This document shows, piece after piece, positions 4,094 to 30,650 of a stretch of 30,650 bases of DNA. A program made the translations under genes and the position numbers. Below the pieces are notes generated by a model. The model saw only the letters and a program-made list of their open reading frames with translations. It did no database searches and was not told the DNA's origin. Location of the stretch: contig MU646835.1 of assembly GCA_026770585.1 (NCBI GenBank), positions 267,674 through 298,323 on the forward strand, given 5' to 3'. This stretch comes from Baffinella frigidus (lineage: Eukaryota; Cryptophyceae; Cryptomonadales; Baffinellaceae). How positions within the stretch are numbered: the stretch's first letter is position 1; each line of letters opens with the position of its first letter.

Positions 4094-4201
4094 TTGGCGA
4101 ATGAGGGAAAGAGGGCGAGCGAGAGAGAGGGAGAGACAACATGGTGGTGTGAGTAGGCAGGCTGGGCCCTTGCTCGCAGGATGAGAGCTGATACACACAT
4201 A

Positions 4202-4800: not shown

Positions 4801-4978
4801 GAGGTACCTCGCTCATAAGGAGCCCCCCCCCCCCGGGGGGGCGCCTCCTTACGAGCGAGGTGCAGGGGTACCTCGCTCATAACAAAGCGCCACCCCCTGA
4901 GACCCTACAGTAGGCCTATGCCTAGGGCCCTATGGTGGTCCTAGGGGGGGTTGCCTTCTTATGAGCGAGGTACCCCTG
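4801..4978. mobile_element. Two abutting family-1 hairpin elements
   Basis: The first, about 4801-4862, has ends GAGGTACCTCGCTCATAAGG and CCTTACGAGCGAGGT and an almost pure C/G loop. The second, 4863-4978, is a full unit from CAGGGGTACC to GGTACCCCTG with the CTACAGTAGG core. Their junction is shared, so no clean TA duplication is left. Confidence 0.75.
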
Positions 4979-5169: not shown

Positions 5170-5372
5170 CAGGGGTACCTCGCTCATAAGAAAGCGCCCC
5201 CCCCCCATACGACCATCTCAGAACCCGTGTTCAAGGCCTAGCCGTCCGTTACAGGGGTACCTCGCTCATATCAAACCGCCCCCCCCTAGCTAGGACCCTA
5301 CAGTAGGGCTATGCCTAGGGCCCTATCGTGGTCCTAGGGGGGGCGCAGTTTCTTATGAGCGAGGTACCCCTG
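5170..5372. mobile_element. Family-1 half element followed by a complete one
   Basis: Half-element at 5170-5207 (CAGGGGTACCTCGCTCATAA plus C-run) with no right arm. The complete 121-bp element is 5252-5372, flanked by TA at 5250-5251 and 5373-5374. The interior has CCTAGGACC-like and CTACAGTAGGG motifs. Confidence 0.8.
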
Positions 5373-5514
5373 TAGGTCCTTCAGGTTCTCTTCACTCCCA
5401 CCACACATGTAGGCGTTCAGGGTTCAGGGTTGACGGTTGGGGGAGAGAGACGTTTATTAATGCCAACACCAGGCACCACACCCCCACCGTCGCGAGGCAC
5501 GAGTTTGTAGAGGA

Positions 5515-10200: not shown

Positions 10201-13200
10201 TTTCTAGCCTCGAGTGGAAGCTCTCTGCTTGAGGGAGGCGCACCTTCTGGTTGTCGGCAGGGTTCTCCGCGAGCTTCGCGGGGAGGCCTGGTTTCGGGTT
10301 TCGCGTTCAGCGTTTGGGGTTCAGTGCTTCGGGTTTCGGGTTGAGTGTTTCAGGTCGAGTGCTTCGGGCTTCGGGTTTCGGGTTGAGTGTTTCGGGTTTC
10401 GGGCCTCAGGTTTCGGGGTTCGGGTTGAGTGTTTCGGGCTTCGGGTTTCGGGTTGAGTGTTTCGGGTTTCGGGTTTCGGGTTTCGGGTTTCGGGTTTCGG
10501 GTTTCGGGTTTCGGGTTTCGGGTTTCGGGTTTCGGGTTCAGTGTTTCGGGTTTCGGGTTTCGGGCTCAGCGTTTCGGGCTTCAGGTTTCAGGTTTCGGTT
10601 TTCGGGTTCAGTGTTTCGGTTTTCGGTTTTCGGTTTTCGGGCTTCAGGTTTCTGGTTTCTGGTTTCGGGTCTAGTGTTTTGGGCTTCGAGTTTCGAGTTC
10701 AGTGTTTCGGGCTTCGGGTTTCGGGCTCAGCGTTTCGGGCTTCAGGTTTCAGGTTTCGGTTTTCGGGCTTCAGGTTTCGGTTTTCGGTTTTCGGTTTTCG
10801 GGTTTCGGACTTCAGGTTTCGGTTTTCACTTTTCGGTTTTCGGTTTTCAGTCTATAGGGTTTGGGGTTTACCGTGTGCCTCCGCCCACTTGATGAGTTTT
10901 TGCTTCTTGGTTTCCGGGGCCCCCCTGGTTTCGAGTTCAAGCTTCAGGTTTCCAGGATTAGGGTTCAGGGTCCATTTTAGGGTTTATCATTTTAGGGTTT
11001 ATCCTTTTAGGGGTCTGGGGTCTGGGGTCTGGGGTCCAGGGTTCAGGGTTTACTTCTCGCGGGGATTTGAAAGGGTTGTTCGGGGTTTCGGGTTCAGGAT
11101 TTCGGGTTCAGGGTGTGGGGTGTGGGGTGTGGGGTGTGGGGTGTGGGGTGTGGGGTGTGGGGGTTACGACGCGGTCGAGGTCTTGGCGGCCGCGGCATGC
11201 TTCACCCCCTTCTTCTTCGTTACCAGCTAGGGTCAACATCAAGTCGCTTTACACAGAGATAGGTCTAGGGTTTAGGGTTCAGGGTTTCAAGTTTCGTGTT
11301 TCGGGTTTTGTGTTTCGCATTTCTTCGGGTGTCTTCGCTTGTAAAGCAATCATGGTTTTGGGTGGGCCGAGAGGTTTCGGATTTCGGGGTTTGGGGTGTG
11401 GGGTGTGGGGTTGAGGAGTTAGGGTTCGGGGGTTACGACGCGGTCGAGGTCTTGGCGGCCGCAGCGTGCTTCACCGCCTTCTTCTTCGTTACCAGCTGCG
11501 GTTAGGGTTTAGGGTTTAGGGTTTAGAGTTTAGGGTTTAGTGGCTATACGTCTGCGTCATTTGACCAGAGGCCGTAACCTGGCACAAATCCACTGACTTT
11601 ACAGTGAATTCACTGCCTCGAGACGTATAGCCATTAGGGTTNNNNNNNNNNNNNNNNNNNNNNNNNNNNNNNNNNNNNNNNNNNNNNNNNNNNNNNNNNN
11701 NNNNNNNNNNNNNNNNNNNNNNNNNNNNNNNNNNNNNNNNNNNNNNNNNNNNNNNNNNNNNNNNNNNNNNNNNNNNNNNNNNNNNNNNNNNNNNNNNNNN
11801 NNNNNNNNNNNNNNNNNNNNNNNNNNNNNNNNNNNNNNNNNNNNNNNNNNNNNNNNNNNNNNNNNNNNNNNNNNNNNNNNNNNNNNNNNNNNNNNNNNNN
11901 NNNNNNNNNNNNNNNNNNNNNNNNNNNNNNNNNNNNNNNNNNNNNNNNNNNNNNNNNNNNNNNNNNNNNNNNNNNNNNNNNNNNNNNNNNNNNNNNNNNN
12001 NNNNNNNNNNNNNNNNNNNNNNNNNNNNNNNNNNNNNNNNNNNNNNNNNNNNNNNNNNNNNNNNNNNNNNNNNNNNNNNNNNNNNNNNNNNNNNNNNNNN
12101 NNNNNNNNNNNNNNNNNNNNNNNNNNNNNNNNNNNNNNNNNNNNNNNNNNNNNNNNNNNNNNNNNNNNNNNNNNNNNNNNNNNNNNNNNNNNNNNNNNNN
12201 NNNNNNNNNNNNNNNNNNNNNNNNNNNNNNNNNNNNNNNNNNNNNNNNNNNNNNNNNNNNNNNNNNNNNNNNNNNNNNNNNNNNNNNNNNNNNNNNNNNN
12301 NNNNNNNNNNNNNNNNNNNNNNNNNNNNNNNNNNNNNNNNNNNNNNNNNNNNNNNNNNNNNNNNNNNNNNNNNNNNNNNNNNNNNNNNNNNNNNNNNNNN
12401 NNNNNNNNNNNNNNNNNNNNNNNNNNNNNNNNNNNNNNNNNNNNNNNNNNNNNNNNNNNNNNNNNNNNNNNNNNNNNNNNNNNNNNNNNNNNNNNNNNNN
12501 NNNNNNNNNNNNNNNNNNNNNNNNNNNNNNNNNNNNNNNNNNNNNNNNNNNNNNNNNNNNNNNNNNNNNNNNNNNNNNNNNNNNNNNNNNNNNNNNNNNN
12601 NNNNNCTACGGAATTGTCTACTTCCTACGGTAGGAAATTCCGTAGCTAAACCCACCTCAAAGTTCGAAGTTTGCCGACTAATCTTAGCCTCAACAAAGCT
12701 TCACAGTAGCCCCCTCCCCCTCCCCCAAGATAGCGCACGGGCGATTCAAATCAACTCTGCTTCCATACGAGACTCTCCCACGCAAGAGTGTAGGGCAGAG
12801 TGACCCACAGGAGAAATAGTAGAATTCTACTATTTCTTAAGTTCATAAGTGGACATTCTTCCCACATAAAAATCGAAATTTCGCAAATTTGTTACAAATT
12901 CCGTGTGAACTGGCTTGTTTTCCCAGGTCTGCCCTACACTCTTGCGTGGTCAGCACCTGCTTGCAAGTTTTCCTGGTACTAAATCCTGCCCGGTTTAGTG
13001 GTACACAATTCCACCCTGGAGACGACTTGAGAGCAAATGGACACCTCCCAAAAGTCAACTCCCCACGAGTGTACCCTTCTGAGGGGTACATCGTCATTTT
13101 GCGCCCCTCGGGAATGATTCTTGCCGATATCTGAGCAGAAATCTGAGACCACATCCAAGCAAAAACTTTCAAAGTTACTCTTAGAATCCGTTCTCAAAAA

Positions 13201-16162: not shown

Positions 16163-19100
16163 ATGTCAGAGGTAGCAGCGACGACGCCGGCGAAGGTGGC
16201 CCCGGCGACGGGCGAGAAGCGTAAAGCACATGACTACTCGGGCGAGAGCCTCGATGACATGCTGCGCATCTACTACGGTACGCACGCCGCCCATCAGTGC
16301 TCACGCGCCTCGCCACCTACTGCTCAACGCCCCCCCCCGCGAACCTCAGCGCCGCCGCCGCCCAATCGCATGGATCGAAAAAGGCGATGTGCTCCCACGC
16401 TGAGAGCCGGTGGTCGAAGCGACCTGGCGCCCCCTCCCCACTCAGTGCTTGGTGCTGTGTATCCCATTCAACGCCGCTTCTCCCTCCCACCTCACCACCA
16501 CCGCTGGCGCGCAGGACAGCTCTTTCCGTACGATAGGGGGGAGATATCCTTCCCAACCTGACGTCCCCGCCCCGCTCGTCCGCGGGGGGGTTCTTCCCGT
16601 ACGAGAGGGGGGGAGGACTCCTTCCCAACCTGACGCCCCCCCCCCCCGCTCGTTCGCGAGGGCTGGTGTTCCCTTGATCCCACGCTGAGGGCTGGTGTGC
16701 GCAGGACGGCTGTTCCCGTACGAGGCGCCCCCCCCCCCGCTCGTCCGCGAGGGCGGGTGTTCCCTGGATCCCACGCTGAGTTCTTTTTTCCCCAGGACGG
16801 CTGTTCCCGTACGAGGCGATGCACTCGTGGCTGTCGTGCGGGCGGAAGGGGGAGGACGCCTTCGCGAAGCGCGAGTTCTCGTACACCCTCGCCAACGACA
16901 TCTACATCCGGTCTGTCTCCCTCGAAAGTTGTACCACGGTTCCAGGCTGTCAACTTCAAGAACTTGAGGATAATCTGTCAACCCGGCTGAGCGCGAGTTC
17001 GCGTTAATCTCCATACATGTATTAATTAATTGCTTTTGGGCAACGAAAATTACTACATGATGTGCTCATAAAAGTAATAGTAGAGCATTTGTGTAGTAAA
17101 TTTCGTTGCGCCAAAAGCAATTAATTAATACTTTTGTGGAGATGAGCGTACACCCTTGGTAACGACATCTACATCCGGTCTGTCTCCCTCGAACGTTGTA
17201 CCACGGTTCCAGGCTTGGAGTCTTGAAGTTGACTGTTCTTGAAGAACTTGAGGATAGTCTGTCAACCCGGCTGAGCGCGAGTTCGCGTACACCATCGCGA
17301 ACGACATCTACCCTCGGTGCGGCCTCAGTCTATTTGGGCTCACCAGTTGTGTGGACCCGGGCTCTTTTCCGCTCCAAAGTTGATGGATTTGTACCACGAT
17401 TCAAGGCTGTCAACTTGAGGATAGTCTGTCAACCCGGCTGAGCGCGAGTTCTCGTACACCCTCGCGAACGACATCTACATTCGGCTCGCCGCCTAGCTCT
17501 GCCTGAGTAAAACTGTGCCCGCCACAGAACACATTCAGAGCAGAAACCCCGGTACAAAGGGGCAACTGAATTCTTTCATGGCGAGCTCTTATCTCAGAAA
17601 ACGAGTTCTAAAACTCGTTTTCTTAAGTCAATTCCCCTACAAATTTGTCAAGTTATGCGGAGAGTAAAGAATAAGGGGATTGACTTAAGAAAACGAGTTT
17701 TAGAACTCGTTTTCTGAGATAAGCTCGGTTTTATCCAGGCGGGGCTAGCCTTTCTCGGTCGGTTTGGTCTCACCACTATCTTATCTCAGAAAACGAGTTC
17801 TAAAACTCGTTTTCTTAAGTCAATTCCCCTACAAATTCGTCAACTTATTCTTTACTCTCCGCATGAGTTGACAAAATTGTAAGGGGATTGACTTAAGAAA
17901 ACGAGTTTTAGAACTCGTTTTCTGAGATAATATCGTGAGACCGGTTTCCATGCAAAGTCGACGAATTTGTACCTCGGTTCCAGGCTGTCAACTTAAGGAT
18001 AGTCTGTCAGCCCTGCTGAGGCAGCGCAAGGACGCCCCGCGGGGGTGCGAGACAAGAAGGCCCTATCCGATGCTTCTGCCAAACAGTTTCCTGATTCTCC
18101 TCTCTGCAAACCAACCTCAACCCTAAACTCTAAACCCTGAACCCTGAAACCTGAACCCTGAACCCTGAACCCTAAACCCTAATCCCTGAACTCTAAACCC
18201 GGAACCCTGAACCCTAAACCCTACACCCTAAACCCTAAACCCTAAACCATCAACCCTAAACCCTAAACCCTAAACCCTAAACCCTAAACCTTAAACCCTC
18301 AACCCCAAACCCTAAACCTCAAACCTCACACCCTAGACCCCAAACCCTGAACCCTGAGACCCAAACCCCAAACCCGAAACTCTAAGCCCTAAGCCCTAAG
18401 CCCTAAGCCCTTAGCCCTACGCCATAAGCCCTAAGCCCTAAACCCTAAACCCCAAACCCCAAACCCCAAACCCTCCTAACCCCGAAACCTTCATCAGGTT
18501 CCTGAGCTACAACACGGTCGAGGAGTTGAAGGCCGACATGATGAAGAAGATCCCGCACAAGATCGACATGGGCGCGGTACTTCATCACCTTTCAGGGTTG
18601 AGGGTTTAGGGTTTAGGGTTTGGGGCAGCTCACCCCTCAAACCTAAACCAGGTTTTAGGTTTTAGAGTTTGGGGGGTTGGGTGTAGGGTTTGGGGAAGTA
18701 CCTTGAACAAGATCGACATGGGCGCGGTGCTCAAACCTTCTTTGTCTTTATTGATAACCCTGAGTACGTAGAGCCATTCCGGGAGGACTTGTCGCGATTT
18801 CGAATTTGGAATTTGATAATTTCAGACTTCATTTGTACCATGCGATTTGAAACGGTGTGTTTTAAAACATTTTACGACCTTTAAAACCTTTTTGAAGTCT
18901 GAAATCTTGAAATCTCGAATTCGAAAACGCGACAAGTCCTACCGGAATGGCTCTACCTGCACCTGCAAAAGTCTCTCGCAAGTCTTGTTCTGGGAGAAAG
19001 CATCAGGGAGACGTCCCTCCCGACCTTCCTACGGACAACCGAAACCTGGTTGACATCCAACCAGGTTTCCCTTCGTAGCCCCCTTGTGTGGCCTAAACCC

Positions 19101-20694
19101 TAACCCCTAAAATCGAACGGGTGACTCGCAAACTCCAAACCCTAAGCCCAGAGCCCAGAACCTAGAACCCTAAACCCCGAAGGCTTTTGTTCGTGGAAAC
19201 CCTAAACCCTAAACCCTAATCCAGGTATCCCTTAAGTGACCAGTAGGCCCATACGCCCTACCGTAGGGCCCTAGGACCTGCCTAGGGCGAGTTAGGGCGA
19301 TTATTCGCCCGTTGGTCACTTAAGGGATACTCATCAGAGCCGAAGAGCCAGGCGATGACCAGCAAGGAGGGGCCTTACAGGAAATCTCGCGCGAGTTAAT
19401 AGTGTTATAGTGCTGACCAATATTGTAATATTGCTGACTAATAGTGTTATAGTGCTGACTTACAGTATTATAGTGCTGACTAATAGTACTACAGTGCTGA
19501 CTAATAGTATTATAGTGCTGACCCCAACCCCCAAACACTGATCCAGGTGTACTCATCAGAGCCGAAGAGCAAGGCGATGATCAGCAAGGAGGCCTTCCAG
19601 GAAATCTCGCGCGAATTCGTCCTCGATATCGATTTGACGGATTACCAGGTTTCACCCCCCCCGAAAAAGAGTACGGGCGACGGATAGTCTTTCTATTTTT
19701 TTGTACTGCGGATCGGCCACTTTTGGAGCGCGGCGGAGGTTTGTGGTGCGAAGTTTCCTTTTGGCGAATGCCGAGTTAGGGGCGTTCCTGGAAATCACGC
19801 GCGAATTCGTCCTCGATATCGATTTGACGGATTACCAGGTTTCAACCCCCCCGAAAAACAGTACGGGCGACGGATAGTCTTTCTATTTTTTGTACCGTGG
19901 ATCGGCCACTTTTGGAGCGTGGCGGAGGTTTGTGGTGCGATGTTGCTTTTCGGCGAAAGCCCAGTTAACCCTAAGCCCTAAACCAACCCTCGACCCTCAA
20001 CCCTCAACCCTCAACCCTCAACCCTAAACCCTAAACCCTAAACCCTAAACCCTAAACCCTAAACCCTACCGGGAGGACGGCACCATCGTCAACTGCATCG
20101 ACCCCTCGGACCCCCTGAACCCAAACCCCCAACCCCTGAACCCTAAACTCTGCCCCCCTTAACCCTAAACCCCTAACCCCCATACCACGAGGCCTCAACA
20201 CTAAAACCCTAGACCCTAAACCCCTAAACCGCAGGAGGGTGCCCCCATGTATACCAAGAGCTTCATGCTAAACCCTACGCCCTAAAACTTACCAGGAGGA
20301 CGGCACGATTGTGACCAACTGCATCGACCCCTCGGACCCCCAGTTCACCAAGAGCTGGCGCTTCATGGCGATCGCGTGCAAGGTCCACACCACCTAAACT
20401 CTAAACCCGAAACCCGAATCCCTGATCCCTAAACCCTAAAACGGAATCCCTGATCCATGAAACCTAAACCCGAAACCCGAAATCCGAAACCCGAAACCCG
20501 AAACCCTATAACCGAAACTCGAAACCCGAAACCCGAAACCCGAAACCCCATACCCCATACCAGAAACTCGAAACCCGAAACCCGAAACCCGAAGCCCGAA
20601 ACTCGAATCACCATACCCGAAACCCAAAACCCGAAAACCCCAACCTTCAACCCTCAACCCTCAACCCTCAATCCTCAACCCTCAACCCGCAACC

Positions 20695-20733
<39 letters not shown>

Positions 20734-23700
20734 TCCCTGATCCCTGATCCCTGACCTCCCTGAGCCCGAATCTCTGATCCCTAAACCCGAAACCCGAACC
20801 CCGAACCCCTCAACCCGAGCCCCTGCAGGTCCTGGACAAAGCGAAACCCCGAAACCCGAAACCCGAAACCCCATACCCAAAACCCGAAACCCGAAACCCG
20901 AAACCCCATACCCAAAACCCGAAACCCGCGCAGGTCCTCGACAAAGCGCGAGGACTTCGGGTTCAAGCACCTCCTCCCTGCTCCCGAATCTCTGCTCCCT
21001 CAACCCGAAACCAGAAACCCGAAATCCGAAATCCGAAGCCCGGAACCCGAAACCTGAAACCCGAAACCCGAACCCCCATACCCGCCGCCAAATAACGAGC
21101 CTTCGGGTTCCAGAATGGAATATAAATCGCTTATTGGTGCATCCCCTGCAGGTGCTCGACAAAGCGCATACCAGAAACTCGAAACCCGAAACCCGAAACC
21201 CGAAACCCGAAACCCCATACCCAAAACCCGAAACCCGAAACCCGCGCAGGTGCTCGACAAAGCGCTCCGTGAGGACTTCGGGTTCAAGCACCTCCTCTGG
21301 GTTTTCTCCGGCCGCCGTGGTACGCCTGACACCCTACACCCTAAACCCCACACCCTGCGCCCTACACCCTACACCCTACACCCTACACCCTACACCCTAC
21401 ACCCTACACCATACACCCGGAACCCGGAATCCGGAACCCGGAACCCGGAACCCGAACCCGAGACCCGAACCCGAGACCCGAAACCATTACCCGAGACCGC
21501 TGCCCGAAACAAGGTATCCATTGCTGGGTGTGCCGACGACCGCATACCCTGTTCTTGAAACTCGTTACCCGAAATCCGAAACCATTACCCGAAACCACTA
21601 CCCGAAACCGCTACCCGAAACCAGGAATCCATTGCTGGGCGCGTGACGACCTCTACATACACTAAACTTCAGCCTCGAAATCCCAAACCCGAAACCATTA
21701 CCCGAAACCCGACAATACCCGAAACCATTACCTGAAACCCGAAACCATTTCCCGAAACCTCAAACCACTACCCGAACCCAAGCATCCATTGCTAGGTGTG
21801 CCGACGACCTGATTTCCTGTTCTTAAAACCCCTTACCCGAAACCCGAAATCGTTATCCGAAACCCGAAACCATTACCCGAAACCACTACCCGAAACCAGG
21901 TAGAGAGATTGATAAGTTGTTGCCAAACAACCAGCGTCAGCGCCGCACATGCTACGCATTTTTCCACTACTGTACCCCGTGTCGGCCGCTCATGCGAGCA
22001 TTTCCCGGATGGATTCTAACTCCACCTCCTACGAACCGAAACCGCTACCCGAAATCACCACCCGAAATCACTACCCGAAACCGCTACCCGAAACCAGGTA
22101 TCCATTGCTGGGTGTGTGACGACCGTGCGCGGCACATGAACAACTCCACCCGCTCCGCCGTCGCCGAGTACCTCTCCGCCATCAAGGTTGCGAGCCTCTC
22201 CCACCCACGAACGACGGTTGACTAAAGCTCCAAGGTTTCCTGGTGTAAACTGGGGGTGTATAGCGAGGGTTTCCTGGTGTGAATTGGGGGTGTATTCGTG
22301 CCGAGACCAGGTTGCGAGCCTCTCCCATCCACAAACAAGGGTTGACTAACGCGTCAAGGTTTCCTCGTGTGAACTGGGGGTGTACATGACCAACTCTAGC
22401 CTCCCATCCACACGACGGTTTCCTCCTGTAAACTGGGGGTGTAGAGCGAGGGTTTCCTGGTGTGAATTGGGGGTGTATTCGTGCCGAGACCGGGTGTGGG
22501 TTTGGGGTTTAGGGGCGACGATCGAGAGAGGGACATGAACAACTTGCTGTCAAGGCGAGCCGCCCATCTTTCAGAAAAAGTGACTTTCTCGATCACTTTC
22601 TCTCTTCTTTTTCCTCAGTACTGTCCTGGGCAAGTATCTATACAGCAACTGTCCTGGGCAAGTATCTATACAGCATGCTAGCTATCCTACGCCAACCGCC
22701 TGCGCGTTTTTGTACACCTAATTCCAGGGTGGGGACCCTAAGCCTAAACCCTGACCACGCGCGCTTACAGGGCCTGTACAGGATGCTAACTATCGATACA
22801 TAATGCTCACTATCCTAAGCTAAGTGTGATATGCTCTCCATGAATGATACGTTTCGCATGATAACACCGCCTTGCTTGCTTTCCCATTCTAAACCCGAAA
22901 CGCGTGCAGGGCCTGTACATGATGCTAACTATCTATGCAGTATGCCAACTATCCTATGCGAAATTCCCCATGCTAACTATCCTATTCTAAATCCTACTAT
23001 GCTAATTTCCCTCTGCCAGATTTCCTATGCTAAACCGTAAACCCTGACGACCCCTTTAGGGCGGGGAGAAGTATCTATACATCATGCTAACTATCCTGTG
23101 GCAACTACAAAGTTTCCTATGCTAACTATCCTATTCTAAATCCTAAGTTTTAACTAAGTTTTCTATGCTAACTATCCTATTCTAAATCACAAAGTTTTCT
23201 ATGCTAACTATCCTATTCTAAATCACAAAGTTTTCTATGCTAACTATCCTATTCTAAACCGTAACCCCTAACCACGCGTACAGGGTGGGGAGAAGGAGAA
23301 GACAAACCTCCCAGGCATGAAGCACCTGCACCCCTCCCTCAAGCGCGCATACGAAGACACCCTTCTCCCGGAGTTCGAAAAGTAAACCCGAAACCCTAAA
23401 CCCTAAACCCCACACCGTTTTTGCTTTTCACACCCTAAATTATGATTGCTTACAAACTTTAGACCCCACACCCGGAACCGTAAACCCGGAACCCGGTACC
23501 CCACCCTGGATGGAACATTATGGTATTTTGAGCATTCTTAAGTCAACTCCCCTTGGAGAACACGCCACAATGTGGCGTGCCCGTGATGAATGGATCTAGT
23601 ACAAAAAGGTCTAATATGTATTTTAGTGGTATAAATCATGTCAACTTTTGCGATAAAGGGTTATTCGGGATTGGCCGCAAGTCCCCTCCAGGGTGGCGGA

Positions 23701-26466
23701 ACCCGGGACCGCTTGGTCCACCGTAAACCGTGATGCTCTACAAACCCTAGACCCTAAACCCTAAACCCTAAACCCTAAACCCCAAACCCCAAACCCCAAA
23801 TCAGGTGCGCAGAGGAGCAGGGCTGGTTCGACATCGAGCAGGTCCGCAACGCCCAAATGTTGATCCACTTATCAAAGTCAACCTGTCAACTTTCGAGCAC
23901 TGTCTCAGTCTATTTGGGCTCACTAATGTGGTGGGCCCGGGCTCTTTCCCGCGCCAAAGTTGACGGATCTGTACCGCACACCCAGCATGTCAACTTGAGA
24001 ATAGTCAACCCAATTGAGGCAGAGCTAGCCACACAGCGGGCTGCGAAGGGATTTTCGGCCCATTTCGGGCCGACTTTCCGTTACCTTATCCGTAGGAACC
24101 CCCCTATGCCCCCTACAGGTTGCCTACCGTAGGATCCTAGGTCTTATCGCTTGGGTGTGATTCAAACCCCCTCGAAGTCCGCTGTGTGGAATACTCCCCC
24201 GTCGTTTTGCATACAGGGGCATCTTTGTACCGGGAAAGGGGTACATAATGGTTGTACAAATTGTATATGTACATTTCAAGGCCGTTTCTGGTACGGGGCG
24301 CCTTTGGGGGCGTGCGGCCACACGAGGCTATCCTTGCGAACATAATAAAAGAACATTTTACAATCTTTGGGGAAATGATCACGTTTCCGTACGGATGTCC
24401 GTACGGAAAAATGTCCGTACGGAAACGTGATCAAATGCTGTCTTTTGGCGTGTTTCCTGGGCAATAATCCAATAATTAACTTATGAATCTGTTCGCATGG
24501 ATAGCCTCGTGTGGGGGGGCGGGGGTTGCGAGGCGCACATTTCATCTCCAAAAAAGTGTTAATTAATTGCTTTTGGCGCAACGAAATTTACTACACACAT
24601 GCTCTACTATTACTTTTAAGAGCAAATCGTGTAGTAATTTCCGTTGCCCAAAAGCAATTAATTAATACTTCTATGGAGATTACATTGCTCTGTCTCACGG
24701 TCTGATTTGGAATCGCCGGGTTGGCGAGACGGGGCTCTTTTTCGCGCCAAAGTTGACGGATCTGTACCGCAGACCCAGGAAGTTGACTTGAGGATAGTCC
24801 GTCAACAACCCGAAACCCTGAACCCTACACCCTATACCAGACGACGGACGGCGCCCCTTCGCAGTGCGCCAAGACCCTCGACCTTCTCGACAACGAAGAG
24901 ATCAGAATTATCGAGGAGGAGAAGCTCCTCCAGGAGCAGTTGACTAATCCCCTATTTCCTGGTACAAAAAGTTCACGAATCCTCTATTTCCTGGTACAAA
25001 AAATGGCTGGGTTAGTCAACTGCCCGCGCCCCGACAAGCAGACGACGGACGGCGCGCCTTCGCAGTGCGCCAAGACCCTCGACCTCCTCGACAACGAAGA
25101 GATCAAGGAGAAGCTTCTCAAGGAGGTTTCGCCCCGTCACCTCACAGATTCTATCTCAGATTTGGCTTTTGGCGTTGGAGCCATTTCGTACTTTTAGGTT
25201 TTAAAACGGCTGGATTTGTACCGGAAATCCGTTAGATGGACGCGTTGCGAAATAGATTCTTTAGGTCCTTGAGGTTTTAATTTCTCCCAACATAGCCCAA
25301 CGACACGCCCTTCCGTAGAAAGGACTGCAGAGAAAGCATTTTTGCCTTCGGATCGCGTTTATAGTGGGCGATGTGATGAGGTTGTGAGCCCCTAGATCTG
25401 CGAACGAGAGGACGGTTGACTAAATCGGGCGGGATTCGTACAGGGCCGGTGGCCATGTTGGTTGCGATGCGAATAAACGCGCGTCTTCGCTCTCGGGGCA
25501 CGCGGGTTTTCCAGGCGCGCTGACTGATTTCATCTCGAAAGACGAATGAGTCAGTTCGCTAATTAGCGTTTTCATTTCATTAGGAGGCCTAATTAAATTT
25601 ACTATGCCATAACTGATTTCTCCTATCCAACTTTTCTATTGAAAAGGAACTGATTCAGTTATCTTCCGGGATGAGATTCCTCTGGCGAAGCCACCCTAAA
25701 TTTCACGCGGAGCAGTTGTAAAAAGCAATGGCTCTAGTAGAGTCCCTCTCGGGGACTTTCGATCCACTTTTGGCGTGCATTCCCCCTGAAATCCGAGAAA
25801 TTGACTTTTGCGATTGCTCCTCGTCCGATCTTGGGTGGAGCGCTGCCCACCGAGACAACCGTCGAGAGTGGAACGTCTCAAAGCAAAAGTGGATCCTCCG
25901 TTAACTCAAGTAACCGTGGATGTTCTCGCGCAGTGGGGGAACAAGAAAGCTTGCATCTCTTGTAAAGCAAGAAATCCTCCGATTTTCTGGGCTTCGAGAC
26001 GGGCCTAAACGAGGCGTTGCCTGAAACTCACCTCGTCTCCTGCAGTGGAGACGAGGTACCTCCGTTAACTTAAGACCGTCAACTTAACAAACAGTGGATG
26101 TTTTCTCGCAGTGGAGCAAGAAGAACAACCGGGACCTAGCTGTCGCCGACAAGTGGGACGATCTCCAGGTTCAAACCCGAGACTCCCACGGCCCGTTCGG
26201 GTACGGGTAGTTCGTAGCACCCTTCGGTACTGCCTACCGTATGGCCCTACACACTACCCGTACCCGAAGAGTTCAGGGTTTCGGGTACTCACCTAGCTGT
26301 CGCCGACAAGTGGGACGACCTCCAGGTTCCAACCCCGAGACTCCCACGACTGTACCAGGCAACGCCTAAAGTCATCACACAGTTGACTAGAAATATCTCT
26401 GGATCCGGCGGTTGGTCCTCGACAGTTCTCAGGAGGCGCGGAAGCGCCCGGAACCCCGCCCGCCCA

Positions 26467-26503
<37 letters not shown>

Positions 26504-29500
26504 ACTTCCTCTCTCTCTCCCGCTCTCTCTCCCTTTCTCTCACACACACACACAAACACAAACACAAAGGGGCGGTCTGAGCGGAATCTGTTCCACGTTA
26601 GCTGTCGCCGACAAATGGGACGATCTCTAGGTTTCAAACCGAGAATTCCGCGACAGTTGCCTGGATCGAGTATGTCTGGAGCTATCTTGAGCAGGGTAGC
26701 GCCGTTGACGGAGGGGGGGGCGCACTGTATATACCCCTTGAGTGGCCAGTAGGCGCATACGCCCTACCGTAGGGCCCTAGGACCTCTGTGGGGTCATTTT
26801 TGACCCCCTGGCCACTTCAGGGATACGCACGAGCCCGAGTCCTCGAGCCGTCTCTGAAGATCTCTTGTCGATTCCTAGCTCTGCCTCAGTGAATCTGGGC
26901 TCGTCATTTAATACAGTTGGATGCCTGTTGGTTTGGAGCGTTTGCACGGAGTCCTGATCTTAATGTATTTAATGGGGAGCCCAGATCAACTGAGGCAGAG
27001 CTAGGAATCGCAAGACCTTCCTAGCTAAATCGCAAGACCTTCCTAGCCCATTTTGACCTTTCGTCGTTTTCTTCCCACCAGTCCTGGGAGGTGGCTCAAA
27101 TTGTGGTCTTGAGTTTGAGCCATTTTACCTTACAGCGGGGTCGATTCGACCCCGCTTAAGAAGTCTTGGGGCAAAATCAACTTTGGTGTTAATTTTGGCA
27201 AAATCAACTGTGGAGTTGATTTTGTCCCGCGCTTCTGACGTGAAAAAACCCTGCTTCAACAGCCCTGGGCTGGTGCGTGTGTCAGTTTGATAACACGACC
27301 ATGACAGAAGCAGGCTCGGGCAGGCTCTGGTCGGCTTTGAACTCGTAATGAATGGTGCGGCAGAAAGAGGTGTACACGAAGATCCCTTCCAACCACTTAG
27401 CAGCCACCGGGGACTTCACGGATGCAGTCCATCTTGGCGATTTGTAGTAGAATCTTATCCATTGCTCTGGAACCTAACCGGAATTTCACCTTGAATTCAA
27501 GGTGAAAACGTCTTCGATCGCTGCTAAGTGGCCCGACGCCCCGCAGACTGGGCGTGGAGGAACGAACCGCACGAACGAACCAGCCTATACTAAACCCTAA
27601 ACCCTAAACCCCGATCCCTAAACCGGCAGAAAGAGGTGTACAAGAAGATCGCGAACAAGGCGAAGAGCGGGGAGATGTCAGCGGATGAGAAGATCCGATT
27701 CATGGTCTTCAAGCTCACGTGAGCGTCCACCCCCGCGAAACGTTCTACGGAGGCTGTGTTTCAGCAGGGCAAGGGTTCCACGCGGAAAAGGAGACGCACC
27801 GCCCGAGGCTCCTACACCTACCCCCTAAACCCTGAACCCTCATCCCTGAACCCTAATCCCTAATCCCTAATCCCGAAATACAGCCACACGAGGCTACCCA
27901 GGCGAACAGAATAAAACGAACTTTTAAAAAATTGTGGGCAAATGATCACGTTTCCGCCCGCTGAGCGGTCGGACCTGTGTAAAGTCGCTGCTTTTCAGCT
28001 GAAAATTACTACACACGTTTACAATCGACATTTATTATGTTCGCATAGGTAGCCTCGTGTGGCAGTCAGGCTATTCCTACGAGCATAGGAGTACCCTAGG
28101 GGCTGTGCGTGTTCGTACTTGTGGATGAGAACATCCGATTCATGGTCTTCAAACTCACGTGAGTTTCCACCCCCGCGAAACCTAGCTCTGCCTCAGTCGG
28201 GTTGACTTGTCGTTTTCACTGCAAAAGTGAACGGGTTTGCACCCAAAGCCCGGGGGATGGACTTCCGGTCTCATCATAATGATGAGACCAAATCGTGTGG
28301 GACAGAGCTAGGTGATAGTAACAATGATTTCACCTGTGATAGAAGTATCAATATAGCTCGGTTTGCCTGCCATAAATGCTATGAAACGGTCCATGATTAT
28401 AGGATGGTTAAAGCCCGCTGACGGGCCCGCCTCGATGCCCGTTACGGTCCGGAACAGCCCCGCCGGCAGGCTCGTGAACGCCCGCGTGACCGGTCACGCG
28501 GACGCCGAAGCCAACTGTCCGAGGTGACTGCCTACAGGGGTACCCTCGTTTCCTGGAAACGTTGCTTGGGTGTGGGGTGTGCGGATGAGAAGATGCGATT
28601 CATGGTCTTCAAACTCACGTGAGTTTCCACCCCCGCGAAACCTGGGCACTTTTCGCGGCAATTTTCGTGCCCACTTTTCGTGCCCAAGTTGAGGTTTCGC
28701 TGGGCACTTTTCGTGCCCATCTCCGGAGATCGGATGCATAGATCCGGTTCATGGTCTTCAAACTCACGTGAGCAGAGGGTGTAGGGTTTAGGATTCAGAG
28801 GGTGTAGGGTTTTCACCCGCGAAACGTTTCTTCGGTGCGGGGTTTGTCCTTTAGGTCCTTAAGGTTTTAAATGCTCCCAACATATGCCAACGACACGCCC
28901 TTCCGTGTTTGTCCGAGTGTCTTGATTGCACCTTGTGTTTGCTCAAATGCCTTGACTGATTCCCGCAGGTACTCTAAATCCTAATCCCTAAACCCTAAAC
29001 TCTAAACCCTAAACCCTAAACCCTAAACCTTAAACCCTAAACCCTGAACCCTAAACCCTAAACCCTAAACCCTAAACCCTAATCCCTGAACCCTAAACCC
29101 TAAACCCTTACCCTACACCCTAAACCAGGTACCCGCGCCTGGATATCGCCGTGTCTAAGTCGATGAACCATTTGCTCAAGTCGCCCTTCTGCGTGAGTAC
29201 CCGAAACCCTGAACCCTTCGGGTACGGGTAGTGTGTAGGGCCATACGGTAGGCAGTACCGAAGGGTGCTACGCACTACCCGTACCCGAACGCGTACCCGG
29301 ATATCGCCTTGGTCGGGTAGATGCACTTTTCGTGCTCAAGTTGACAGCCCTTCTGCGTGAGAACCCGCCCACGGAAACCTGTCTCCAGTGAGAGAAATCA
29401 CGAACACTCGGGATCCTGTCTGCGGTGAGAGAAATCGCGAACACTAGGAAAAATATTCTGCAGGCCTGTCTGCGGTGAGAGAAATCACATACACTAGGGT

Positions 29501-30318
29501 AAATTTCTGCAGGTCTGCAGTGAGGGAACACACCCTCGGAAACGTGGCTGCAGTGGGGCAAATCACAAAGACTTTCAAGGGACCCCACTACCGTTGTGGC
29601 CAAAAGTAGCCGAACCCCATCACCGTTGTGGCCTAGAGTAGCCCTGATCCCGGGACGCTGCCGGAGCAGATGGTCATGTCAGAGTGAGAGAGACCTTTCT
29701 TGATGCCAACATTTTCGCCTTGTATCCCCCCGCTGAGAGGCCAGGTTTCAGCAGGACGTAGCGCCCTTACGGCAAAGGGGCTTGGAAAAAAGTTACTACG
29801 CAAATACCCACTTTTAACAGCACATCGGTTTTAAATAGGCCCCTCTGGCATTCTCGTGTGGCAGGTGCGTCCGAAGATTTCCCTTAAAAGTGCATTTGTA
29901 AGGCTTTTTCCTGGTACAAACCGGACGTGCTTCACAATCTACTTATACCCGTAGTATCTTCAGTCCGGGCGCGGAGAGCCCTGACGGCAAAGGAGCGAGG
30001 CAGGTGCACCCGAAGACGCGCCGGATCTTAAATAGGCCCCTCTACCATTCGCGTGTGGTGCATCGGTCCCGGGAGTCCCCTCCCCGCTCGAGAGCTAGTT
30101 ACAGGGGTACCTCGCTCATAAGAAACCGTCGCCTCCTAGGACCCCACAGTAGGCCTCTGCCTAGGGCCCTATGGTGGTGCTAGGGGGGTGGGCGTTTCTT
30201 ATGAGCGAGGTACCCCTGTAGCCCTGACGGCAAAGGGGCTTGGCAGGTACACCCGAAGACGCACCGGATCTGCGTGCCGCTCGACCCCCAACACGTCGAC
30301 GACTTCAACCCCAACGAC
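16163..30318 (+). CDS. PRIM1: DNA primase small (catalytic) subunit, 14 exons visible, 3' end outside window
   Basis: This subunit makes RNA primers in the polymerase alpha-primase complex in the nucleus. Exons: 16163-16277, 16796-16910, 18498-18576, 19547-19648, 20296-20382, 21250-21319, 22098-22186, 23284-23381, 23805-23841, 25042-25125, 26112-26168, 27630-27718, 29129-29192 and 30247-30318, in total 1158 nt or 386 codons. All introns are GT-AG and every phase fits. Family signatures: LFPYE (exon 2), [14 protein letters not shown] (exon 2), [10 protein letters not shown] (exons 3-4), VLDIDLTDY (exon 4, catalytic D130 and D132), [17 protein letters not shown] then IHCWVCD (exons 6-7), [20 protein letters not shown] (exons 12-13, catalytic D346) and [13 protein letters not shown] (exon 14). 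Human PRIM1 has 420 residues, so only the C-terminal part is missing. Exon 5 has one cysteine where relatives have four zinc ligands. Introns of 423-1587 bp hold repeats, hairpins and broken exon copies. Exons 9-11 are the least conserved; their choice rests on phase and position. The start at 16163 is preferred over the in-frame ATG at 16076 because a CAG after a pyrimidine tract lies just before it. Confidence 0.93.
16515..16735 (+). pseudogene. Three copies of primase exon 2's 5' end
   Basis: GACAGCTCTTTCCGTACGA at 16515, TTCTTCCCGTACGAG at 16591 and GACGGCTGTTCCCGTACGAG at 16705 repeat the start of the real exon at 16796. Two retain CAG before them. The units also repeat CGCTCGTCCGCGAGGGCGGG and CCCACGCTGAG, giving a tandem array of roughly 100-bp units. 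Confidence 0.85.
16911..17490 (+). pseudogene. Copies of primase exon 2's 3' end alternating with family-8 and family-6 elements
   Basis: Fragments of GAGCGCGAGTTCNCGTACACC...AACGACATCTACATCCG occur at 16985-17002, 17144-17183, 17272-17312 and 17440-17485, all downstream of the real exon. Between them are family-8 pieces (GTTGTACCACGGTTCCAGGC, GTCAACCCGGCTGAG) at 16925-16986, 17192-17275 and 17313-17442, and a family-6 hairpin at 17007-17143. Confidence 0.85.
17007..17143. mobile_element. Family-6 hairpin element inside an exon-2 copy
   Basis: Ends ATCTCCATACATG and complement-like CTTTTGTGGAGAT; arms carry TATTAATTAATTGCTTTTGG. The interior has GAAAATTACTACATG. It splits GAGTTCGCGT|TA from GTACACCC..AACGAC, so it sits within a broken exon copy. 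The same 137-bp length as the copy at 24544-24680. Confidence 0.85.
17589..17722. mobile_element. Family-5 hairpin element with GCTC duplication
   Basis: 134 bp, ends TTATCTCAGAAAACGAG and complement, flanked by GCTC at 17585-17588 and 17723-17726. Confidence 0.9.
17738..18022. mobile_element. Family-8 element with a family-5 element inserted, TATC duplication
   Basis: Family-8 halves GGGGCTAGCCTTTCTCGGTC...(17738-17776) and AAAGTCGACGAATTTGTACC... (17953-18022) are separated by a 150-bp family-5 hairpin (17781-17930) flanked by TATC at 17777-17780 and 17931-17934. The insertion order is therefore readable. Confidence 0.85.
18115..18487. repeat. CCCTAAA telomere-like tract at the 3' end of primase intron 2
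   Basis: About 370 bp of CCCTAAA with CCCTGAA, CCCCAAA and CCCTAAG variants, ending eleven bases before the acceptor TCATCAG of exon 3. The plus (sense) strand is C-rich. Confidence 0.95.
18700..18727 (+). pseudogene. Copy of primase exon 3's 3' end
   Basis: AACAAGATCGACATGGGCGCG followed by GTGCTC repeats the end of the real exon (CACAAGATCGACATGGGCGCG, donor GTACTT). Preceded by a mixed GGGTTTA/CCTAAACC palindromic tract (18595-18700). Located downstream of the real exon. Confidence 0.85.
18768..18956. mobile_element. 189-bp hairpin element, unassigned family
   Basis: Ends GTAGAGCCATTCCGGGAGG and complement CCTACCGGAATGGCTCTAC, with TTGTCGCG / CGCGACAA and TTTCAGACTTCA / TGAAGTCTGAAA pairing further in. 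No copy elsewhere in the window. Confidence 0.75.
19040..19068. repeat. Short perfect hairpin
   Basis: GAAACCTGGTTG and CAACCAGGTTTC around a five-base loop (ACATC), within primase intron 3. Confidence 0.8.
19228..19327. mobile_element. Family-4 hairpin element inserted at the start of an exon-4 copy
   Basis: 100 bp, ends TCCCTTAAGTGACC and GGTCACTTAAGGGA, flanked by TA (19226-19227, 19328-19329). The interior has GCCCTACCGTAGGGCCCTAGG. It lies between CCAGG and CTCATCAGAGCCGAAG, i.e. right at the acceptor of a broken copy of exon 4. Confidence 0.85.
19330..19397 (+). pseudogene. Copy of primase exon 4's 5' portion
   Basis: CTCATCAGAGCCGAAGAGC through GAAATCTCGCGCGAG matches the real exon 19547-19648 with base changes and small indels. 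It stops before the catalytic DID motif. Located upstream of the real exon. Confidence 0.9.
19398..19525. repeat. GTGCTGACTAATAGT tandem array
   Basis: Five to six units of about 22 bp, each with CTGAC and CTAAT or similar, resembling splice branch-site consensus CTRAY. Immediately upstream of the real exon 4 acceptor region. Confidence 0.9.
19599..19964 (+). repeat. Tandem duplication spanning primase exon 4's 3' end and 120 bp of intron
   Basis: The run GAAATCTCGCGCGAATTCGT to ...GAGTTA is present twice (about 19600-19777 and 19790-19968). The second copy (exon part 19783-19838) carries the DID codons and donor but no 5' half, so it is a 3'-end exon copy downstream of the real exon. Confidence 0.9.
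19970..20290 (+). pseudogene. CCCTCAA/CCCTAAA tract and two copies of primase exon 5's 5' end
   Basis: At 20073-20118 GAGGACGGCACCATCGTC.. to CCCTCGGACCCC copies the exon start. At 20235-20268 GAGGGTGCCCCC..ACCAAGAGCTTCATG follows a GCAG and looks like the same exon with an internal deletion. Both lie upstream of the real exon at 20296. Confidence 0.8.
20395..21249 (+). pseudogene. CCCGAAA tract with three copies of primase exon 6's 5' end
   Basis: GTCCTGGACAAAGCG at 20829, GTCCTCGACAAAGCGCGAGG..CACCTCCTCC at 20934-20977 (six bases missing) and GTGCTCGACAAAGCGCA at 21152-21168, each preceded by GCAG. The real exon starts at 21250. The filler is CCCGAAA, with CCCTCAA at 20645-20735. The minus-strand GFRVSG frames here are repeat by-products. 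Confidence 0.9.
21320..22097 (+). pseudogene. CCCTACA and ACCCGAAACC tracts with three copies of primase exon 7's 5' end
   Basis: GTATCCATTGCTGGGTGTGCC at 21514, GAATCCATTGCTGGGCGCG at 21625 and GCATCCATTGCTAGGTGTGC at 21783 repeat the start of the real exon at 22098; all end after GACGAC. The filler changes from CCCTACA (21325-21415) to CCCGAAACCATTA/CCACTA units. Confidence 0.9.
22187..22555. repeat. Tandem GGTTTCCTGGTGTGAATTGG units and an exon-7 fragment
   Basis: Five copies of GGTTTCCTNGTGTNAANTGGGGGTGTA between 22228 and 22476. The intron start GTTGCGAGCCTCTCCCA (22187) is repeated at 22311. GACATGAACAACTTGCTG (22532-22549) resembles the middle of exon 7 and lies downstream of it. Confidence 0.8.
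22619..23265. repeat. ATGCTAACTATCCTA array in primase intron 7
   Basis: CTGTCCTGGGCAAGTATCTATACAGCA occurs twice in tandem (22619-22674 region). Then ATGCTAACTATCCTATTCTAAATC units repeat to 23255. CTAAC in every unit matches a branch-site consensus. GGGCGGGGAGAAGTATC at 23059 may be a short copy of the exon 8 start. Confidence 0.85.
23382..23804. other. Primase intron 8 with CCCTAAA tracts
   Basis: CCCTAAACCC at 23393-23415 and 23750-23800 flank unique AT-rich sequence. CCACAATGTGGCGTG is a short palindrome near 23569. No exon fragment recognised. Confidence 0.6.
23902..24189. mobile_element. Family-8 element abutting a family-2 hairpin
   Basis: Family 8 runs from TGTCTCAGTCTATTTGGG to CAATTGAGGCAGAGCTAG (about 23902-24028). 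Family 2 occupies 24029-24189 with CCACACAGCGGGCT and AGTCCGCTGTGTGG ends and an ACCGTAGGATCCTAGG core. Confidence 0.8.
24318..24514. mobile_element. Family-10 hairpin element, CCAC-ended
   Basis: Ends CCACACGAGGCTATCC and GGATAGCCTCGTGTGG. The centre is a strong palindrome with three CCGTACGGA units between GATCACGTTT and AAACGTGATC. Flanked by GG on both sides. The related copy at 27884-28062 has a different centre. Confidence 0.85.
24544..24680. mobile_element. Family-6 hairpin element
   Basis: The same 137-bp unit as 17007-17143 but in opposite orientation; ends ATCTCCAAAAAAGTG and ACTTCTATGGAGAT, interior GAAATTTACTACACAC. ACATT occurs within three bases on each side and may be the target duplication. 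Confidence 0.85.
24694..24806. mobile_element. Family-8 element, partial
   Basis: CTCTGTCTCACGGTCTGATTTG then GGCTCTTTTTCGCGCCAAAG, TTGACGGATCTGTACCGC and AGTTGACTTGAGGATAGTC match family-8 interior. The right terminal CAGAGCTAG is missing. Confidence 0.7.
24841..24934 (+). pseudogene. Upstream copy of primase exon 10
   Basis: ACGACGGACGGCGCCCCTTC to GACAACGAAGAGATC is nearly identical to the real exon at 25042-25125, then the end is changed and extended ([14 protein letters not shown]). The acceptor CCAG is intact, but no GT directly follows the exon end. I prefer 25042-25125 because its donor is intact, but this copy could be an alternative exon. Confidence 0.75.
24940..25000. repeat. Tandem 31-bp repeat
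   Basis: AATCCNCTATTTCCTGGTAC plus AAAAA occurs twice in a row between the two exon-10 copies. Confidence 0.85.
25536..25668. mobile_element. Family-7 hairpin element
   Basis: Ends CGAAAGACGAATGAGTCAG and CTGATTCAGTTATCTTCCG; interior AAATTTACTATGCCATAACT. Second copy of the unit at 13901-14031. Confidence 0.75.
25769..25897. repeat. Inverted repeat, GATCCACTTTTGC ends
   Basis: CGATCCACTTTTGGCG pairs with CAAAGCAAAAGTGGATCC; the interior is not strongly palindromic. Possible further CCAC-type element. Confidence 0.55.
25908..25948 (+). pseudogene. Copy of primase exon 11's 5' end
   Basis: GTGGATGTTCTCGCGCAG then TGGGGGAACAAGAAA repeats GTGGATGTTTTCTCGCAG then TGGAGCAAGAAGAAC at the real exon 26112. 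It is upstream of that exon. A CCTCGTCTCC..GGAGACGAGG palindrome lies between them (26033-26058). Confidence 0.8.
26196..26268. mobile_element. Family-9 hairpin element
   Basis: Ends TTCGGGTACGGGTAG and CTACCCGTACCCGAA, interior CCTACCGTATGGCCCTAC. A copy in opposite orientation is at 29217-29289. It sits between the real exon 11 and a broken copy of its 3' end. Confidence 0.85.
26290..26632 (+). pseudogene. Two copies of primase exon 11's 3' end, with a CT/CA microsatellite
   Basis: CTAGCTGTCGCCGACAAGTG..CTCCAG then GTTCCAACCCCGAGACTCCC (26294-26344) and TTAGCTGTCGCCGACAAATG..CTCTAG then GTTTCAAACC (26598-26640) repeat the end of the real exon and the start of its intron. Between them lies a (CT)n/(CA)n microsatellite at 26467-26568. 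Confidence 0.85.
26734..26823. mobile_element. Family-4 hairpin element, TA-flanked
   Basis: 90 bp, ends CCCCTTGAGTGGCC and GGCCACTTCAGGGA, core GCCCTACCGTAGGGCCCTAGG, TA at 26732-26733 and 26824-26825. Confidence 0.8.
26875..27006. mobile_element. Family-8 hairpin element with the best preserved ends
   Basis: CCTAGCTCTGCCTCAGT and ACTGAGGCAGAGCTAGG; pairing extends outward through CGATT / AATCG, and TGGGCTC / GAGCCCA pairs inside. Confidence 0.85.
27060..27350. other. Intron sequence with small palindromes
   Basis: AGCGGGGTCGATTCGACCCCGCT at 27135-27157 and AAAATCAACTGTGGAGTTGATTTT at 27200-27223. No exon or larger element was recognised. Confidence 0.5.
27364..27385 (+). pseudogene. Copy of primase exon 12's 5' end
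   Basis: CGGCAG then AAAGAGGTGTACACGAAGAT repeats the start of the real exon at 27630 (AAAGAGGTGTACAAGAAGAT). It is cut off eight bases before a CCACTTAGCAGC hairpin. Confidence 0.9.
27393..27531. mobile_element. CCAC-ended hairpin element, single copy
   Basis: Ends CCACTTAGCAGC and GCTGCTAAGTGG, 139 bp, with a perfect 24-bp palindrome at 27484-27507 (centre GAATTC). No flanking duplication seen. Confidence 0.75.
27884..28062. mobile_element. Family-10 hairpin element, CCAC-ended
   Basis: Ends CCACACGAGGCTACCC and GGTAGCCTCGTGTGG, flanked by CAG on both sides. The interior has AAATGATCACGTTTCCG like the other copy, then a different centre with GAAAATTACTACACACG. Confidence 0.8.
28122..28158 (+). 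pseudogene. First copy of primase exon 12's 3' end
   Basis: GGATGAGAACATCCGATTC..AAACTCAC then GTGAGTTTCC repeats the exon end and donor region, followed by CACCCCCGCGAAACC as in the real intron. Confidence 0.9.
28179..28313. mobile_element. Family-8 element, divergent
   Basis: CCTAGCTCTGCCTCAGTC to GGGACAGAGCTAGG. The interior is different from other copies, with GGTCTCATCATAATGATGAGACC as an inner palindrome. Confidence 0.75.
28582..28767 (+). pseudogene. Second and third copies of primase exon 12's 3' end, with GGGCACTTTTCGTGCCC units
   Basis: Exon-end fragments at 28582-28618 and 28732-28767, each followed by GTGAG. Between them GGGCACTTTTCGTGCCCA-type palindromic units occur about three times (28646-28720). 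After the last fragment a TTTAGGG-like insertion (28773-28812) splits the intron motif from CACCCGCGAAACG. Confidence 0.85.
28975..29128. repeat. CCCTAAA tract ending at the acceptor of primase exon 13
   Basis: About 150 bp of nearly perfect CCCTAAA that runs directly into ACCAG before the exon. Confidence 0.97.
29217..29289. mobile_element. Family-9 hairpin element
   Basis: Ends TTCGGGTACGGGTAG and CTACCCGTACCCGAA, reverse orientation relative to 26196-26268. It lies between the real exon 13 and its broken copy. Confidence 0.85.
29293..29356 (+). pseudogene. Degenerate copy of primase exon 13
   Basis: TACCCGGATATCGCC, then altered sequence, then GCTCAAG..GCCCTTCTGCGTGAG. The start of the exon lost the CGCCTG codons, and stops interrupt the frame. 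The donor GTGAG is retained. Confidence 0.85.
29378..29645. repeat. CTGTCTGCGGTGAGAGAAATC tandem array
   Basis: Three clear and two weaker units of 55-70 bp, followed by a 40-bp unit with CCGTTGTGGCC present twice (29592 and 29626 regions). In primase intron 13. Confidence 0.85.
29787..30028 (+). pseudogene. Two copies of primase exon 14's 5' end joined to family-11 pieces
   Basis: Family-11 right ends (AGTTACTACGCAAATAC...CATTCTCGTGTGG, 29787-29861) lead directly into CAG and GTGCGTCCGAAGAT (29865). A second copy, GTGCACCCGAAGACGCGCCGG (30004-30024), again precedes a family-11 right end (30028-30060). Both lie upstream of the real exon at 30247. Confidence 0.8.
30102..30218. mobile_element. 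Family-1 hairpin element, complete, TA-flanked
   Basis: 117 bp, ends CAGGGGTACCTCGCTCATAA and complement, TA at 30100-30101 and 30219-30220. It is inserted before GCCCTGACGGCAAAGGGGCT, which also occurs near 29768 and 29981, so it sits inside the repeated lead-in of exon 14. Confidence 0.85.
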
Positions 30319-30344
30319 GTGAGAGCGCGCCCCCCTCCCCTGAT

Positions 30345-30625
30345 GATTCAACCCCAACGACTCAACCCCAACGACGTGCGAGCACCCCCCCTCCCGCAAA
30401 CCGCTATCGAGCGAGGAGGGAACACCTTAAAAGTTTTAAGGACTTTTACCTGAAGCCAAGATCGTTTTCTGGCCCTGACTGTCTTATATGTCGTTTTCTG
30501 GCCCCGACTGTCTTATATGTGCCGAGTTTGCTCGGTAGCGGAGGGCTCAAATGCCTCGATCGAAGACGCGCCGGATCTGCGTGCCGCTCGACCCCCAACA
30601 CGTCGACGACTTCAACCCCAACGAC
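30345..30625 (+). pseudogene. Copies of primase exon 14's 3' end
   Basis: TTCAACCCCAACGAC and ACTCAACCCCAACGACGTG at 30347-30377, then a longer copy CGAAGACGCGCCGGATCTGC to CCCCAACGAC with donor GTAAGAG (30561-30625) that lacks the exon start. Between them a 31-bp unit TCGTTTTCTGGCCC.. is in tandem (30461-30521). All lie downstream of the real exon. Confidence 0.85.
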
Positions 30626-30650
30626 GTAAGAGCGCCCCCCCCCCCTTTAG

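Follow-up and report, generated by a model that had tools for sequence, protein, structure and literature searches.

The small-subunit DNA primase gene of the cryptophyte alga Baffinella frigidus raises the question of how pieces of a gene's own exons come to lie in its introns. We analyzed a stretch of 30,650 nucleotides (nt) of contig MU646835.1 (assembly GCA_026770585.1, positions 267,674 to 298,323 of the forward strand), hereafter the window, within which the joining of 14 exons (E1 to E14) on the + strand yields an open frame of 386 amino acids, all introns being of the GT-AG type. When the exons alone were compared with the introns of this gene at a threshold of at least 24 bits, we found 27 sense matches, every one of them in introns adjoining their own exon. 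At this threshold there was no sense match in non-adjacent introns of the gene and no antisense match in adjacent ones, and a single antisense match fell in a non-adjacent intron. Dinucleotide-shuffled introns gave a mean of 0.05 adjacent sense matches per replicate (100 replicates). Upstream of the exons, 11 matches hold the 5′ end and one holds the 3′ end, the latter being the second half of a near-whole copy of E10. Downstream, 13 matches hold the 3′ end, one is interior (E7), and one holds the 5′ end; this last match belongs to a near-whole copy of E13 that continues through the exon end and the donor in a longer alignment.

Merging by hand of the exon-only matches with matches including intron flank resulted in 31 copies, which cover 12 of the 14 exons; in this set no copies were found for E1 (16163-16277) or E9 (23805-23841). 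Seventeen copies lie upstream of ten exons (2, 4, 5, 6, 7, 8, 10, 11, 12 and 14), and 14 lie downstream of eight exons (2, 3, 4, 7, 11, 12, 13 and 14). While 25 of the 31 derive from the 27 exon-only matches, six are weaker: three fall short of 24 bits (22.0 bits for each of the E2 copies at 16515 and 16589, 20.4 bits for E5 at 20243) and three rest partly on intron flank (E6 at 20800, E8 at 23030, E11 at 25898). The block around the weak upstream copies of E2 aligns at E 9e-37. None of the 31 copies holds the wrong exon end alone. A preliminary description of this DNA, made from the sequence, had reported copies of exon ends for at least ten of the 14 exons, and alignment of the exons against their flanking introns bore this out: its positions were correct, all exons that it listed upstream (2, 4, 5, 6, 7, 11, 12, 14) and downstream (2, 3, 4, 11, 12, 14) were recovered, and it had missed E8 and E10 upstream as well as E7 and E13 downstream. 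Its term "truncated" is slightly loose, since the E2 copy at 16589/16609 has an internal deletion and the copies of E10 and E13 are nearly whole. The presence of exon-edge copies in the primase introns is thereby confirmed.

Exon positions follow the gene model, and the copies, like the exons, are on the + strand. Intact E2 (16796-16910) is preceded by copies at 16515-16533 (exon nt 1-19, AG kept), 16589-16624 (nt 4-20 plus 53-68, AG lost) and 16705-16727 (nt 1-23, 100%), and followed by copies at 17147-17288 (exon end, donor and intron), 17274-17311 (an exon-only match) and 17441-17483 (GT changed to GC). E3 (18498-18576) has one downstream copy (18707-18739), and E4 (19547-19648) has one on either side, at 19328-19397, with an inverted-repeat element (19225-19330) at its 5′ edge, and at 19781-19967. 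Two copies precede E5 (20296-20382), at 20073-20115 and 20243-20262, and three precede E6 (21250-21319), at 20800-20843 (match with flank), 20934-20976 (exon-only match) and 21143-21167. E7 (22098-22186) has three upstream copies (21485-21542, 21596-21651, 21757-21809) and one downstream (22517-22544); for E8 (23284-23381) there is one upstream copy (23030-23071). The near-whole upstream copy of E10 (25066-25125) at 24838-24936 kept the acceptor and lost the donor, and the near-whole downstream copy of E13 (29129-29192) at 29289-29367 kept the donor and lost the acceptor. E11 (26112-26168) is flanked by an upstream copy at 25898-25947 and downstream copies at 26291-26348 (95%) and 26599-26652, E12 (27630-27718) by one upstream at 27358-27384 and three downstream at 28120-28183, 28580-28643 and 28731-28772, and E14 (30247-30318) by one upstream at 29977-30028 and two downstream at 30349-30395 and 30561-30646 (95%).

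To see how far this arrangement extends in the genome, we searched the assembly (382,457,362 bases in 1,364 contigs) and sampled exon matches to CCT (10), dynein AAA_6 (9), kinesin (30 of 45) and MCM (10), each with flanks of at most 1,500 bases. Loci L057 and L068 are themselves copies of the exons L050 and L062 and were dropped, which left 57 exon cores on 27 contigs; if they are retained, the two matches of L057 are polar and the one match of L068 (8-75 of 81) is contrary by one base. Exon cores served as queries with telomere-like repeats masked, and the threshold of 32 bits was chosen after viewing lower-scoring lists. At 32 bits or more, 52 copies were found, of which 27 are upstream and nearer the exon start, 24 are downstream and nearer the exon end, and one is antisense. 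Thus, all 51 sense copies are polar, and by locus 18 of 18 are, copies within one locus not being independent. The cores are domain matches and not exact exons, and copies lying inside them were assigned by the nearer core end: 36 of the 51 reach a core end within 10 nt, and 15 lie inside the core. Copies accompany 3 of 10 CCT, 1 of 9 dynein, 12 of 29 kinesin and 2 of 9 MCM loci, i.e. 18 of the 57 cores, on 12 of the 27 contigs examined, and are 71-99% identical to the exon. As a cross-gene control, each core was compared with four loci that differed from it in both family and contig, and no match was obtained in 228 pairs; a control that included same-gene or same-family loci gave 7.0 matches per set, and the same contig and family were excluded from the final one. 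Contrary matches obtained with flanked queries (L020, L021, L022, L023; L028 worst; L007 and L008 at 28-31 bits) were driven by telomere-like repeats, and those above 32 bits were gone once exon-core queries with masked repeats were used. The upstream-5′/downstream-3′ bias that the preliminary description had suspected beyond the primase gene was therefore not refuted by these other genes.

The geometry of the copies points to their likely origin, as they are direct head-to-tail repeats, in sense orientation and local. Exon 4 from its nt 45 into intron 4 (19591-19778) is repeated at an offset of 190 nt with 92% identity and a gap of 2 nt, and the units at the end of E14 are separated by 9 nt (copy at 30349). 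The gaps at E2 (142 nt) and E11 (100 nt) are mostly occupied by inverted-repeat elements, so that the units would nearly abut without them; the element within the E2 tandem copy (17002-17148) has a sibling at 24542-24682. Repeat units that span a splice site and have one border in the exon were found downstream of E4, E2 and E11 and in the kinesin loci L040, L051, L055 and L058. Alignments of successive units, from which trivial self-matches (100% rows) were left out, pair 28-273 with 280-526 in kinesin L055 (gap 6 nt), and in kinesin L040 the homology fills the whole 253-nt period (87-339 versus 340-587, where the edge of the compared segment cuts it). Tandem Repeats Finder (TRF) reported a period of 369 with 2.4 copies and 91% matching in kinesin L058, where the array ends 66 nt inside the core; in L055 (period 252, 2.3 copies, 88%) and L051 (period 204, 1.8 copies, 94%) the array begins inside the exon core. 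Two acceptor types alternate across the last four upstream copies and the intact one in L058, a pattern that amplification of a two-unit block produces. At the E11 tandem junction, the filler (26194-26292, − strand) matches 29193-29291 in inverted orientation at 98% identity; the latter stretch comprises the first 99 bases of intron 13, the E13 donor among them. When the genome was searched with these bases, 40 of 72 candidates were scored and 78 matches were listed. The element part proved to be widespread; among the candidates scored, two other matches begin at bases 7-8 with 76-79% identity and the rest at base 22 or later. Because among these candidates only 26194-26292 and 29193-29291 match from base 1, the filler looks as if it was copied from intron 13 and not separately transposed. 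The E4 unit with its 2-nt gap and the four loci named above support the earlier proposal of tandem duplication with one breakpoint in an exon and one in an intron as the probable origin of the copies.

These results make it very probable, in our view, that recurrent small tandem duplications, arranged head to tail, are part of how the introns grow, with partial exon twins as a by-product. A unit of about 50-370 nt would duplicate head to tail, and wherever only one of its borders fell inside an exon, the other being intronic, a partial exon twin would be formed. A unit over the acceptor would place a twin upstream that carries the exon start, a unit over the donor would place one downstream that carries the exon end, and one full exon would always be left. 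Such duplications may survive since splicing would still choose the intact exon, whose own acceptor and donor lie at the usual exon spacing (exon definition), while selection would purge duplications that fall within an exon or that copy a whole exon along with two functional sites. Error-prone repair of breaks, or slippage during replication, may account for the first duplication, and unequal exchange between existing repeats for the later copies. The polarity would thus follow from the geometry of duplication and the need to keep the mRNA intact, and the range of copy identities suggests many separate times of origin.

A mechanism aimed at exon-intron junctions, e.g. transcription- or splicing-linked breaks at exon edges, would also place copies there, and we consider it unlikely. 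Of the 18 local repeat families in the primase gene, 15 touch an intact exon, compared to 6.7 expected under random placement (P = 5e-5). From the 57 loci, 29 were hand-picked so that no place would be counted more than once, although three pairs overlap by about 200-410 bases; here, 22 of 88 families of all ages touch a known exon versus 12.6 expected (P = 0.006). Against such targeting, repeats that are at least 92% identical show no excess in the 29 loci (3 of 23 families versus 2.6 expected), and the primase gene was picked for its striking look. No exon-targeted mechanism is therefore needed in these loci, and the chance rate among young families is what a non-targeted process predicts; targeting, hinted at by the primase gene, was not upheld among the young repeats. 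On the simplest reading, duplication does not single out exons, and old copies of exons remain the easier ones to identify because their intact source is slow to change. The exon-edge density in the wider sample is then at least partly a detection effect. The preliminary description had taken the density of copies as a sign of a persistent mechanism of intron growth; the spread of identities fits a continuing process, while the density itself carries this argument less far owing to that effect.

Several observations weigh against untargeted tandem duplication. Young primase repeats favor exons as well: 8 of 11 families at 92% identity or more touch an exon versus 3.2 expected (P = 0.003), and 7 of 8 do at 93% or more versus 2.2 expected. 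Uniform duplication does not predict this excess, and the primase gene is richer in exon-edge copies than expected. Two interior pieces were counted against strict polarity: E5 at 20243 (nt 42-61 of 87) lies closer to the 3′ end of its exon and E7 at 22517 (nt 21-48 of 89) closer to the 5′ end, in both cases the wrong one. In the other genes, 39 of 57 exon cores have no copy at 32 bits or more, and below this threshold contrary core matches occur at L021 (upstream 3′ end, 26.6 bits) and L063 (upstream 3′ end, 29.7 bits). The copies of E12, the upstream copy of E4 and those of L025 are not contiguous with their source, and the DNA between copy and source is not always an identifiable element. 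Finally, none of the 51 copies holds both core ends, where none is expected if the units were as short as the visible homology and 8.4 if they equalled the offsets (P = 3e-5), which makes this a weak test of the selection step.

It is also conceivable that the copies regulate expression, either as alternative splice sites or as partial exons. Among the donor copies scored in the primase gene, GT is kept in 12 of 13; among the acceptor copies scored, AG is kept in 11 of 16, a count that rises to 14 of 16 when three boundaries placed by hand are shifted by one base, not every copy having been scored; all five upstream acceptors of L058 keep AG. However, by our estimate, made with no formal test, this retention is close to the level that the general identity of the copies predicts, so it does not demonstrate use of the sites, and we dropped conserved splice sites as a proof of use. 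Furthermore, no primase copy was found with both splice sites, the two near-whole ones having each lost one. A regulatory role therefore appears improbable, and from the intact reading frame and the orthologous proteins we infer that the spliceosome ignores the copies, so it would have to single out the one complete exon from among similar-looking splice sites.

Assembly artefacts, i.e. haplotypes or repeats wrongly joined, are a highly improbable source of the copies. The contig stops at the last base of the window inside the E14 array, which deprives the primase gene of its 3′ end, positions 11642-12605 of the window are a run of N, and one downstream copy of an MCM exon (L062/L068, C315) is 99% identical and lies beside a gap (N), possibly as a recent duplication or a misassembly. 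Yet the copies diverge from the exons by 1-29%, have their own flanks, contain or adjoin elements and recur on 12 of the 27 contigs examined. That a transposon or introner-like element carries the exon pieces is equally improbable, since, in spite of inverted-repeat elements in or between the copies of E2, E4, E11, E13 and E14 and a shorter one seen by eye after the E10 copy, sense copies of each exon are found only beside that exon, no element common to copies of different exons was seen here, and the elements belong to several families, are also present away from exon copies and look like later insertions or filler.

A broader version of the tandem-duplication account would be persistent, repair-driven intron growth throughout the nuclear genome, in which intron breaks are healed by local tandem duplication plus filler. 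We regard this extension as doubtful. The filler would consist of inverted-repeat elements, templated pieces and telomere-like repeats with the C-rich strand on the coding strand.

Telomere-like repeats (CCCTAAA / CCCGAAA) occur in primase introns 2-6, 8, 11 and 12 and in L003-L067, where they often abut acceptors. In the primase introns, 104 such motifs are C-rich on the coding strand versus 4 on the opposite one. In the other genes, 23 of the 24 contigs with the motif have more on the coding strand and 3 of 27 contigs are without it; the totals are 935 versus 33, overlapping loci being counted more than once. The opposite orientation would offer acceptors of the form TTTAG followed by G. At 10001-11500 the + strand carries an extended G-rich telomere-like tract (GTTTAGGG), which would fit the introns of a minus-strand gene.

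The host gene encodes a DNA primase small subunit. Its product contains the PF01896 domain and is homologous to eukaryotic primases over nearly the whole query, including solved structures (best E 6e-81). Cryptophyte primases are the best protein matches, the first being a sequence labelled Tamp (63%), a label that we take to stand for Teleaulax; the top five further include Guillardia theta and a record labelled Rhodom.... In a 31-row tree the predicted primase groups with the Guillardia and Tamp sequences (95/81) within a fully supported clade of nine. It aligns to its orthologues without duplicated segments, apart from eight residues at an alternative start of E10. Because seven aligned relatives lack these residues, the acceptor at 25066 is more likely than the one at 25042, which is also in frame. 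The PF01896 profile gave no match in the whole genome, as the short exons presumably escape the family model.

Elsewhere in the window, a family of inverted-repeat elements with TACAGGGGTACC ends is represented by five near-full-length copies (4200-4309, 4853-4978, 5248-5375, 5743-5862 and 30100-30220) and several partial ones. An open frame with a MYND zinc finger lies at 2740-3552 and is apparently intronless over that stretch. No Rfam family was found in the window at gathering scores. The 20 kb upstream of the window (L001, L002) are without any G or C and are presumably N throughout.

Introner-like elements enlarge introns in bulk in algae and other protists. The primase introns share such growth, but no common element was seen in them; each piece copies its own neighbouring exon. 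In the parts of the literature consulted, the closest precedent is the potato RdRp gene, in which a single, recent tandem duplication that straddled an intron-exon boundary gave rise to a new spliced intron, as shown by RNA-seq and comparison with relatives (PMC4974935). As in the alga, one border lies in the intron and one in the following exon, and the duplicate brings an acceptor and an exon start. In contrast to the event as described in those parts of the potato report, the alga has multiple diverged copies at many exons of several genes, and the gene model contains no new exon or intron. Tandem duplication is also an accepted route of intron gain according to the sections considered of a further source (PMC3443670), and the Rogers/AGGT route likewise involves within-gene tandem duplication that affects intron structure. 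Compared with that route as presented there, the algal segments span existing splice sites, and in the primase gene model we found no intron of the AGGT route, i.e. no exonic AGGT duplication that yields a new spliced intron. At the level of repair, fill-in by CST-Pol alpha-primase at staggered breaks leads to small tandem duplications, as was observed at induced breaks in human and mouse cells with insertions under 100 bp in the portion of that study used here (PMC8355091). The algal copies resemble this known repair outcome in being short and head to tail, but their units reach up to 369 nt.

In an open-licence library we recognised no description of such copies in cryptophytes, and what seems new is their scale, their iteration and a polarity shared by unrelated genes of the same genome. 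In genomes of this kind, partial exons may mislead gene finders and duplication callers. The copies record intron lengthening, a process that is usually erased, and this record can be read because the slowly changing exon keeps old tandem duplications recognisable. Since near-identical acceptors and donors stand side by side and only one of them belongs to a complete exon, such genes are natural experiments in splice-site choice that offer a test of exon definition in a protist lineage with no need for engineered constructs. If the broader, repair-driven account is true, the introns of this alga would turn into arrays of exon edges and decoy splice sites, all of which exon-definition splicing would have to reject.

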